The notes beneath the pieces are model-generated. The model had not been told where the DNA came from and did not search any database. It worked only from the letters and a program-made list of their open reading frames with translations. A stretch of 41,412 nt of DNA from Bacteroidales bacterium (GTDB lineage: Bacteria; Bacteroidota; Bacteroidia; Bacteroidales; UBA12077): contig JAUWQL010000015.1 in the NCBI GenBank assembly GCA_030611105.1, positions 1 to 41,412 on the forward strand, read 5' to 3'. Of this stretch, positions 16,364 to 31,521 are shown piece by piece. The position numbers and the translations under genes are program-made. How positions within the stretch are numbered: the stretch's first letter is position 1; every line of letters starts with the position of its first letter.

Positions 16364-18745
16364 TTAATAAAAATCTTCGTGTTCTGTTCGTCTAATAATT
16401 TCATTTTGCAAGTTTTCGCCCAGGTCATTGAAATAATCACTATATCCGGCAACTCTTACAATTAAATCTGTATGTTTTTCAGGATATTTTTGAGCATCAC
16501 GAAGTGTTATAGCGCTCACTACATTAAACTGAATATGATGCCCGTCCATTTTGAAATAGCTTCTTACTAAATGCGAAAGCTTAGTAATACTCTGGTCATC
16601 TTTAAAAAATGATGGTGAAAATTTTTGATTCAACAATGTACCGCCGGTTTTAATATGATCAATTTTAGCTGCAGATTTTAACACAGCAGTCGGCCCTTTT
16701 TTATCGGCTCCCTGAAACGGACTAATTCCTTCTGAAAGCGGTTCTAAGGCTTTTCGTCCATCGGCTGTTGCTTTAATAACACTGCCAAAATATACATGGC
16801 TCGTAGTAGGCAGCATGTTAATTCTGAATTTTCCCCCACGGTATGTTGGTTTGCTATTAATCGCATCATAGAAAATATTAAAGACATCTACAGCCAAAGA
16901 ATCAACATAATCGTCATCATTTCCATATTTGGGAGTTTCATAAATCAAATCATGACGTAATTGATCGTATCCTTCGAAGTTAGCTTCCATTGCTTTTAAT
17001 AATTCGTCTATAGTAATATTTTTATGGTCGAACACATTGTATTTGATTGATGATAAATTATCGGCAATGCTTCCCAGTCCGACACCTTGAACATAACTTG
17101 TGTTATAACGCGCGCCGCCGGCATTATAATCAACTCCATTTGAAATACAATCTTCAATAATTAATGATAAAAATGGAACAGGAAGTTGTTCTGCATATAG
17201 TTTTTCAATAATATTATTGCCCTTTAATTTAATGTCGGCAAAGTAGTTGACTTGTTTTTTATATGCATCTAGTAATTCATCTATATTTTTAAAACTCCTT
17301 GGATCACCGGTTTTTATACCAATTTTTTTATTTATTTTGGGATCAATACCGTTGTGTAAGGTAATCTCAAGTATTTTATTAAGATTAAAATATCCGGTTA
17401 ATATATAACTTTCAGTTCCAAAGGCCCCTGTTTCAACACAGCCGCTTGCTCCACCATTTCGTGCATCAATAATCGATTTACCTTGATTAATCAATTCTTT
17501 AATAATGGCATCGGTATTGAAAAATGATGGTTGGCCAAAACCTGATTTTGAAATTTTTATTGCGCGTTGTACAAAACTGTCAGGATTCTTTTTGCTTATT
17601 TGTACCATTGAGCTTGGTTGAAGAATACGCATTTCTTCAATAACATCAAGTAAAATATAAGTAAGTTCATTAACTGCATCCGTTCCATCTTCTTTAAGTC
17701 CACCAAGGTTAATTAATGAGAAATCGGTGTATGTATTACTTTCTAAAGCAGTAACACCCATTTTAGGTGGCGATGGGTGGTTGTTGAATTTAATCCAGAA
17801 TGCCTGTAATAATTCAATAGCTTCTTCTTTAGTAAGAGATCCGTTTTTAATTTCTTGCTTATAAAATGGATACAAATGTTGATCTAATCTGCCGGGATTA
17901 AACGAGTCCCAGGGATTTACTTCTGTTATTACTCCTAAATGAATAAACCAGTAATGCTGAAGCATTTCGTGGAATGTTTCTGGAGCATTAGCGGGAACTT
18001 TTCGGCAAACTCTTGCCATTTCAATTAGCTCCATCTTCCTTTGTTCGTCTTTTTCAATTTCAGCTAAATTAATTAATGTTATTGCGTGTCGATGGGCAAA
18101 TGCAATAATTGCATTTGCTGCAATATCCATTGCTTTAAGTTCTTCTATTTTGTCTGAAACTTTTGGATCATTGGAAGATTTGTGTTTTGCGATAGATTCT
18201 TGAATTTCTTTTTTCAGATCCAACATTCCTTTTTGGAAAATCTTTTTGCCTGCAACTGTATGTCCGGGAGCTCGTTGTTCTTGAAATTCAGTAAAAACAC
18301 CAGCTTCATAAGCTGCTTTCCACTCGTCAGATAATTGAGCAAATATTTTATCACGTTGAGAATTCCCTTTCCAAAATGGAATAATTTCCTTTTCATAAAT
18401 TTCTTTGGTTTCATTATCAACCCTAAACCAAACTTTAGGCCTTGTATCCAATATATCCAAATCCTGTATTGAATGTAAACTTACTTCGGGGTAGGTTGGA
18501 GTTTCTTTTGGGGCAGGACCACGTTCTCCAACAATTAGTTCGTTTTCGTTTATGCAAATCTTTTTATTTTCAAGGATATATTTAAAAGTCATTGCGCGTT
18601 TTACAGGTCCCGACAATTGTCGGGAAGAAACCTGATTGGCAATATCCTTTTTATAAAATTCGGTAACCAGAATTGCTCTTTCCGGTGATAATTTATTTAC
18701 AGCTGTTAAACTTTGGTTTCGCAGTTTTTTTATTCTTGTGTTCAT
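16364..18745 (-). CDS. hypD: trans-4-hydroxy-L-proline dehydratase (glycyl radical enzyme)
   Basis: 793 residues. Radical site Gly767 (RVAGYS), thiyl Cys436 and Glu438 (SGCVETG). Compared with the Clostridioides difficile HypD sequence as I remember it, the residues named as hydroxyproline pocket are kept: the FTEF Phe, His162 (GHT), Ser/Asp/Phe of SNTYTDF, Tyr of LTGYF and Thr of LPTT. The enzyme removes water from hydroxyproline to give pyrroline-5-carboxylate, which ProC reduces to proline; no proC is in the window. Its activase gene is 15 bp upstream. Oddity: residues 41-46 (SRQLSG) are encoded exactly by a perfect 18-bp palindrome of a repeat family, and they are an insertion relative to the remembered homologue. 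Confidence 0.92.
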   Translation of the reverse strand: MNTRIKKLRNQSLTAVNKLSPERAILVTEFYKKDIANQVSSRQLSGPVKRAMTFKYILENKKICINENELIVGERGPAPKETPTYPEVSLHSIQDLDILDTRPKVWFRVDNETKEIYEKEIIPFWKGNSQRDKIFAQLSDEWKAAYEAGVFTEFQEQRAPGHTVAGKKIFQKGMLDLKKEIQESIAKHKSSNDPKVSDKIEELKAMDIAANAIIAFAHRHAITLINLAEIEKDEQRKMELIEMARVCRKVPANAPETFHEMLQHYWFIHLGVITEVNPWDSFNPGRLDQHLYPFYKQEIKNGSLTKEEAIELLQAFWIKFNNHPSPPKMGVTALESNTYTDFSLINLGGLKEDGTDAVNELTYILLDVIEEMRILQPSSMVQISKKNPDSFVQRAIKISKSGFGQPSFFNTDAIIKELINQGKSIIDARNGGASGCVETGAFGTESYILTGYFNLNKILEITLHNGIDPKINKKIGIKTGDPRSFKNIDELLDAYKKQVNYFADIKLKGNNIIEKLYAEQLPVPFLSLIIEDCISNGVDYNAGGARYNTSYVQGVGLGSIADNLSSIKYNVFDHKNITIDELLKAMEANFEGYDQLRHDLIYETPKYGNDDDYVDSLAVDVFNIFYDAINSKPTYRGGKFRINMLPTTSHVYFGSVIKATADGRKALEPLSEGISPFQGADKKGPTAVLKSAAKIDHIKTGGTLLNQKFSPSFFKDDQSITKLSHLVRSYFKMDGHHIQFNVVSAITLRDAQKYPEKHTDLIVRVAGYSDYFNDLGENLQNEIIRRTEHEDFY
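18608..18625. repeat. 18-bp palindromic element inserted in frame in hypD
   Basis: TCCCGACAATTGTCGGGA is a perfect palindrome occupying exactly six codons (Ser41-Gly46). The form TCCCGA-N6-TCGGGA recurs at 25622-25639 and 31486-31503 outside known genes. Without the six residues the region aligns to the C. difficile enzyme, as remembered, with no gap. Confidence 0.75.
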
Positions 18746-25547: not shown

Positions 25548-25670
25548 ATGAAAGATTATGACAGAAAAGAATTACTAAGGCTCATAAAAGAAGCAAATGA
25601 AATAACAAAAATAATGACAAATCCCGATAGCTATCGGGGAAAAATTCATCGTACAGAAAATAATATTTAA
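25548..25670 (+). CDS. Possible 40-residue ORF carrying a palindromic repeat
   Basis: ATG at 25548 (a second in-frame ATG is at 25542). Forty residues: a helical start (DRKELLRLIKEANEITKIM), then TNPDSYRGK. The codons for NPDSYRG are the TCCCGA-type palindrome itself. The helix loosely recalls the last helix of four-helix-bundle (rRNA intervening sequence) proteins, so it may be a decayed gene end. Chance cannot be excluded. Confidence 0.25.
   Translation: MKDYDRKELLRLIKEANEITKIMTNPDSYRGKIHRTENNI
25622..25639. repeat. TCCCGA-N6-TCGGGA family palindrome
   Basis: TCCCGATAGCTATCGGGG; the inner 16 bp are a perfect palindrome. Same family as 18608-18625. Confidence 0.7.
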
Positions 25671-31475: not shown

Positions 31476-31521
31476 TCCCGTCCCGTCCCGAAAGTTTTCG
31501 GGATATCGGGAGCTATCGGGA
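31476..31521. repeat. Composite palindromic repeat between oxidoreductase subunit genes
   Basis: Three TCCCG units (31476-31490), the near-palindrome TCCCGAAAGTTTTCGGGA (31486-31503), then TATCGGGAGCTATCGGGA (31504-31521). The whole can fold as nested hairpins. It lies inside the operon, so it could adjust the level of the gamma subunit. Confidence 0.7.

Follow-up and report, generated by a model that had tools for sequence, protein, structure and literature searches.

The locus studied here raises the question of how a perfect palindrome of 18 bp came to lie in frame within the gene of a conserved enzyme. The window, by which we mean the whole stretch of 41,412 nucleotides that was analysed, contains on its minus strand an ORF of 793 aa (positions 16364 to 18745), and codons 41-46 of this ORF, coding for SRQLSG, consist of the palindrome TCCCGACAATTGTCGGGA (positions 18608 to 18625, minus strand). 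A first-pass annotation of this DNA had described the same residues in the same frame, and both sequence and frame are as it described. It had further proposed that a dispersed palindrome was inserted here, comparable to the Rickettsia palindromic elements. To follow this up, the genome that contains the window (G000; 3.77 Mb in 217 contigs, 89.7% complete) was compared with relatives, all of the genomes being drafts.

The palindrome in hypD

The best solved match of the 793-aa product was trans-4-hydroxy-L-proline dehydratase (6vxc; E 3.7e-299, 997.7 bits), while the second-ranked glycyl radical enzyme reached 531.8 bits, and the Pfam families matched were PFL-like and glycine-radical (Gly_radical). 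By these matches, the product resembles a HypD-type (trans-4-hydroxy-L-proline dehydratase-like) enzyme. In an AlphaFold model of HypD (22 sequences, mean pLDDT 78.5), residues 40-44 had a pLDDT below 50 and were located between the helices 34-38 and 47-60, so that the insert falls in the predicted loop that separates these helices.

We searched for hypD in 59 genomes, G000 included, and found a match (E<=0.001) in 37 of these. As the remaining 22 of the 59, some of which are incomplete, gave no match at this threshold, the essential character that had been supposed for the enzyme is not borne out. The alignment contained 27 loci, our own and one from each of 26 relatives; a second match in G023, a fragment in G019 and remoter glycyl radical enzymes were left out. 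The G019 fragment (query residues 1-80 in 75 codons) fits an empty site. Among the 26 aligned relatives, the palindrome was present only in L017 of G002, the nearest genome (93% identical). The other 25 have a single residue where SRQLSG stands, which is Ile or Val in 21 of them, and the codon is often one for Ile (ATT or ATA). Compared with 21 of the 25 empty relatives, the net length change is +5 residues (+15 bp). The addition of six residues that had been claimed is correct only in comparison with C. difficile and the four relatives L032, L040, L041 and L042, in which one further residue is missing just upstream of the site. In a public set of the 80 best HypD loci, mainly from metagenome-assembled Bacteroidales or Bacteroidetes, a palindrome-bearing segment of 29 residues occurred once (L321, probably the same genome as G002), whereas the segment has 24 residues in 78 loci and 22 in one. 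Judged from these alignments, the insertion in hypD is derived, one codon having been replaced by six.

The centre of the hypD copy is CAATTG; TAATTA and TAGCTA, which are commoner centres, would give a stop in that frame. The hypD site, with CAGGTTTCT preceding the insert, also resembles intergenic repeats of the GAAACTTG or CAGGTTTCA type. Such repeats hold copies at L074, L207, L213:10227, L219, L221:5896 and other loci.

Dispersal of the family and position relative to genes

The family was defined by the pattern TCCCGA-N6-TCGGGA, with the reversed pattern as control. G000 contains 57 exact copies, some of them genic, compared to 0 sites of the reversed control, and the window holds five sites within two mismatches where 0.45 were expected (100 shuffles, largest value 2). 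Copies were found in 81 of 147 near genomes (0-57 each) and in 222 of 395 genomes from the whole phylum (up to 62 each), G000 being included in both sets, and identical palindrome centres reappear in distant Bacteroidota families. One or two copies per genome may be due to chance, since the reversed control also matches now and then. The family is thus dispersed in G000 and patchy over Bacteroidota. Among 107 distinct exact contexts, the commonest centres are TAATTA (18) and TAGCTA (16); a perfect palindrome is found in 53, and pairing is complete in 71 when G-T pairs are allowed. The idea of an uptake sequence was set aside, single half-sites showing no clear excess in the window (TCCCGA 13 and TCGGGA 8, versus TCCGGA 13 and ACCGGT 7). 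A description of the 18-mer was not found among the papers listed by searches by sequence and by topic, but REP counts are apparently tabulated for Flavobacterium in PMC12306157, and the TCCCGA-N6-TCGGGA palindrome may be counted there.

To locate copies relative to genes, we counted exact copies wholly inside ORFs of at least 110 aa, a test that covers 49 of the 57 exact copies in G000. Genic copies amounted to 5/49 in G000 (one doubtful), 4/42 in G012 and 2/22 in G002, whereas such ORFs make up 85%, 85% and 82% of the bases, respectively. Genes are therefore strongly avoided by the copies, although some of the ORFs counted as genic are doubtful and the ribonucleotide reductase copy described below lies outside the counted stretches of G000. 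The statement that the family otherwise occurs outside known genes thus applies to most copies, but not to all. The intergenic copies of G000 lie between convergent (10), codirectional (23) or divergent (6) ORFs, or at contig or stretch ends (5). Among classified copies, 33/39 in G000, 32/36 in G012 and 13/13 in G002 are situated between codirectional or convergent ORFs.

In G000, a copy also terminates a 380-aa ORF, and further copies are located close to where a 417-aa ORF and a 129-aa 23S_rRNA_IVP protein end. G012 has a copy inside an 837-aa ORF, a putative histidine kinase. In the window, the one-mismatch copy TCCCGATAGCTATCGGGG (positions 25622 to 25639, plus strand) codes for PDSYR at the end of a 46-residue frame (positions 25554 to 25664), which is similar to the C-terminus of a 23S_rRNA_IVP-type (four-helix) protein; pieces like this frame were found again elsewhere in G000. 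At L212:5500-5700 of G012, a CCTGCC-rich, repeat-like stretch adjoins in frame the 18-mer of a long ORF, and similar CTGCCTGCC stretches occur near copies such as L053. The one-mismatch site L066:153 was rejected as a genic copy, being likely due to chance (G012 has a related non-palindromic sequence), and L050 and L206 were set aside because of short or start-of-frame ORFs.

Occupied and empty sites

We compared 130 copy entries (at most one mismatch, some loci entered twice) between genomes by their flanks. An empty counterpart was obtained for 17 flank entries and a shared one for 29, these sets overlapping, and the remainder had neither under those limits. A further 23 flank pairs of G000, including hypD, were searched in three relatives, and 30 loci out of a longer match list were compared. 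The loss was 3 bp in hypD, the ribonucleotide reductase gene, queG (inner copy) and an FtsQ-like gene (inner copy), and 4 bp at L057, L065, L082, L214/L237 and L249, where the replaced lengths of L214/L237 and L249 rely on flanks of 74-76% identity. At sufE, L064, L192, L071, L073 and position 31486 of the window 5 bp were lost, at queG (outer copy) 6 bp, and at L243 and L081 7 bp. The cleaner occupied/empty pairs thus showed that the 18-mer stands in for 3-7 bp. This range excludes comparisons outside 3-7 bp (among those listed -12, -9, -2, 2, 27, 28, 42, 58, 80 and 143) or with poorly aligned flanks; among others these are L052, L053, L059, L061, L062, L063, L066:7003, L066:8563, L070, L079, L202, L221:5896, L247 and one L057 comparison.

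We also looked for direct repeats at the borders of the 107 contexts. Repeats of 2 bp were found in 18 contexts compared to 7.5 expected (0/1000 shuffles as high), and about ten of these, by eye, lie within GAAAC-type arrays. Repeats of 5 bp were found twice versus 0.1 expected (2/1000 shuffles as high), and those of 3 or 4 bp were not in excess over chance. When both sides were offset by 3, 3-bp repeats were also frequent, with 12 versus 1.8. A short target duplication may exist in some copies. At two similar repeat loci of G000, L065:4062 and L082:4023 (cgcaatg...ttcgcaatg), the 18-mer stands at the same point, where the matching G005 loci have AAAT. This shared occupancy could be due to either parallel insertion or gene conversion.

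In the window, the exact copy TCCCGAAAGTTTTCGGGA (positions 31486 to 31503) is nested in an older copy. The comparison with G012, which has the un-nested TCCCGATAATTATCGGGA at this site, revealed 18 bp in place of ATAAT and, on the two sides, the remnants TCCCG (positions 31481 to 31485) and TATCGGGA (positions 31504 to 31511) of the older outer palindrome. Nesting with remnants on both sides was observed for 6/48 copies in G000, 4/42 in G012, 1/22 in G002 and 0/4 in G005. The position of nesting was repeated in queG and the FtsQ-like gene (TCCCG-ATA-GC, 3 bp lost); nesting at L050 and L200 looks alike, but no empty site was seen for these two. These comparisons showed that the palindrome inserts into older copies of itself.

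When nested copies were included, flank stems of at least 6 bp surrounded 13/48 copies in G000 (shuffled mean 2.57, 0/2000 as high) and 5/22 in G002 (P 0.0015), but they were not significant in G012 (3/42, P 0.14) and were not found in G005 (0/4). The most frequent outward triplets were TGA, seen at 16/196 copy ends versus 3.6 expected, and CGG, at 15/196 versus 1.0, to which nested remnants contribute. TG was present on at least one side in 27/98 copies and on both sides in one. The target preference is therefore partial, one-sided and not strict.

In three further genes with in-frame copies, single sites were followed through related genomes. In queG (Pfam QueG_DUF1730; 30 loci aligned), G005 contains one palindrome, G000 a second within the first and G012 a third level. 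The queG of G011 carries a related copy that is one base longer and slightly shifted in position, L099 may have a decayed copy, and in most of the other loci a short linker, for example YDKSIKDYC, stands instead. In the ribonucleotide reductase (identified by Pfam), SRKLSG was found in 4/29 rows, namely L282-L284 (G002, G012 and G000) and L294 (G001), and a single residue in the other 25; G005 has the palindrome as well. In a tree from which G005 was left out, G001 groups with the empty G003 (100/99), and two changes are needed to explain the occupancy. On this tree, the same codon therefore apparently received two separate insertions, unless the pattern is due to exchange of a very short tract.

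The FtsQ-like gene is named from our reading of the protein, a Pfam match being absent. An older copy is represented in six of its 24 rows by residues around PDSYR. Among the DNA compared, this older copy is intact in G009 and differs by one arm base in G000 and G012, and a second, nested 18-mer, which replaced ATA as judged from G009, is present only in G002. In sufE (SufE, Pfam PF02657), the stop codon is supplied by the palindrome copy in G000, G005 and G012. In G002 both the sufE and the queG site are empty, unlike those of its close relatives, and the distribution of copies therefore also reflects recombination or loss. The two sites are about 1 kb apart, and L089 (G002) is empty at both in comparison with L194 (G012) and L229 (G005), as if this stretch of G002 had been swapped for a palindrome-free allele.

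Relation to known repeats and possible routes of spread

The Rickettsia palindromic elements are, in the parts of PMC2229807 that describe them, 105-146 bp long with 12-bp terminal inverted repeats, and occur between genes as well as in frame in conserved protein genes. In-frame copies were found here in hypD, queG, the ribonucleotide reductase gene and the FtsQ-like gene. In contrast, our palindrome has 18 bp and six codons, nests in itself, replaces a few bp and is found in Bacteroidota. The likeness proposed at the outset thus extends to the outcome only, and the palindrome is not a member of that family. GTAG- or CGTC-tagged REPs, given as 20-40 bp long, are likewise short, dispersed and mostly intergenic palindromes, with intragenic cases in several species (PMC3733652, in part). 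Unlike these, the family described here has a length of 18 bp, no evident tag (a shared tag of the GTAG/CGTC type was not found by eye in the flanks of the 107 contexts) and no transposase adjoining the G000 copies. Because length, tag and transposase did not agree, we filed the 18-mer under neither group.

Selfish palindromic repeats of Volvox organelles average 50 nt and are often inserted into one another, as queG, the FtsQ-like gene and window position 31486 exemplify here, but those of the mitochondrial DNA are, apart from one rRNA module, reported for intergenic and intronic DNA only (PMC2670323, in part); the present copies are bacterial and also lie within protein genes. The yeast mitochondrial GC clusters (GC42, GC18) are also small, mobile and palindromic; they merge with one another, may be present or absent at a given homologous site, and have AG or ACT direct repeats at their flanks (PMC4478555, in part), whereas the cleaner empty sites here indicate base loss. 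A transposase-made MITE would show a target-site duplication; at the cleaner empty sites 3-7 bp were lost, while border repeats of 3 and 4 bp are at chance and those of 2 and 5 bp above it.

We consider it likely that a REP-like 18-bp hairpin element (TCCCGA-N6-TCGGGA) is spreading in Bacteroidota and that hypD holds one copy. An origin of the hypD palindrome by codon drift has practically no probability: evidence in its favour was not found, 57 copies stand against 0 control sites, and the fact that the length change is located exactly at the palindrome in the 26 relatives and the 80 public loci argues against chance. If the copies were regulatory hairpins (terminators or RNA stability elements) under selection, with an incidental copy in hypD, the intergenic position of the majority and the location of several in the loop of an apparent terminator would be accounted for. 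We nevertheless hold this to be improbable, since terminator-like hairpins lack a copy in relatives at L057, L064 and L070 and the in-frame copies are left unexplained.

Two other explanations concern the way of spreading. Copies could be REPs moved in trans by a tyrosine (Y1/HUH, TnpA-REP) transposase, with hypD as an intragenic case, which seems rather unlikely to us. G000 has nine Y1_Tnp matches, intragenic REPs have been described, many of them in DNA synthesis and repair genes (PMC3733652, in part), and in TnpA subclass 2.6, mostly from Bacteroidetes, the flanking structures are atypical and have copies at other places in the genome (PMC6006769, in part). The TGA enrichment, with TG on one side rather than both, is an asymmetry that would fit a one-sided target. 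However, copies with 0-1 mismatch lie beside 0/9 Y1_Tnp loci in G000 and 1/31 over nine genomes (the one in G036), with flanks of up to about 1.5 kb a side, G014 (10 copies) and G055 (9 copies) have no Y1_Tnp match, and a GTAG/CGTC tag is not evident at copy ends. IS200/IS605-type insertion is not known to lose target bases, unlike what we observed at the copies. A mobilising enzyme was not found, and a link to Y1 transposases is not supported by position in the genomes searched; the part of PMC7218506 seen contains nothing on mechanism. Template switching or hairpin-templated repair, in which the nascent strand folds back on itself or moves over to a different copy of the hairpin and then resumes a few bases further downstream, would require no dedicated enzyme and is conceivable, though we would give it less than an even chance. 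The variable small target loss, the recurring geometry of self-nesting and, in G000 and G002, the position of copies in the loop between pairing flanks are consistent with it. On the other hand, the hypD and ribonucleotide reductase stretches compared in empty relatives contain no earlier copy, so a template in trans would be needed, and one codon hit in two lineages asks for some targeting.

For the REP-like element, we read mobility from the comparison of draft genomes rather than from observed transposition. One copy would have replaced a single hypD codon in an ancestor common to G000 and G002. It could survive there because the net change is a multiple of three, because its centre, unlike TAATTA and TAGCTA, gives no stop, and because it was placed in a predicted loop. 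Selection would have purged gene-breaking copies, so that in-frame or C-terminal ones remain, and we read the palindrome as tolerated in protein loops. Spread would involve hairpins of single-stranded DNA, which would take part in hairpin-templated template switching while DNA is replicated or repaired, or be handled by a putative recombinase in trans. Hairpin-templated insertion is in keeping with the loss of target bases, with nesting that recurs at one position and with the preference for loops. A bolder proposal, which we put forward tentatively, is that the 18-mers form a transposase-free class of ultra-short hairpins across Bacteroidota that replaces loop-sized DNA, its own loop included, and by repeated hits adds one six-codon peptide after another to conserved genes, queG for example.

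The main expectation of the first-pass annotation, namely that a dispersed palindrome has entered the gene of a conserved enzyme without shifting its frame, is supported, as it is absent from 25/26 relatives and 79/80 public loci and other genic copies exist; the same residues without the palindrome in unrelated phyla did not turn up. With the 18-mer family, a further variant is added to the dispersed coding palindromes: mobile palindromes that code for protein now include cases in Bacteroidota, and their unit can be as short as six codons. A species-level series is gained with queG (empty, single, double and triple) and with a ribonucleotide reductase codon that was apparently hit twice. The in-frame copies indicate that proteins can gain amino acids from a mobile repeat of very small size. 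Through occupied and empty pairs from close relatives, it becomes directly testable how short palindromes that lack their own transposase spread.
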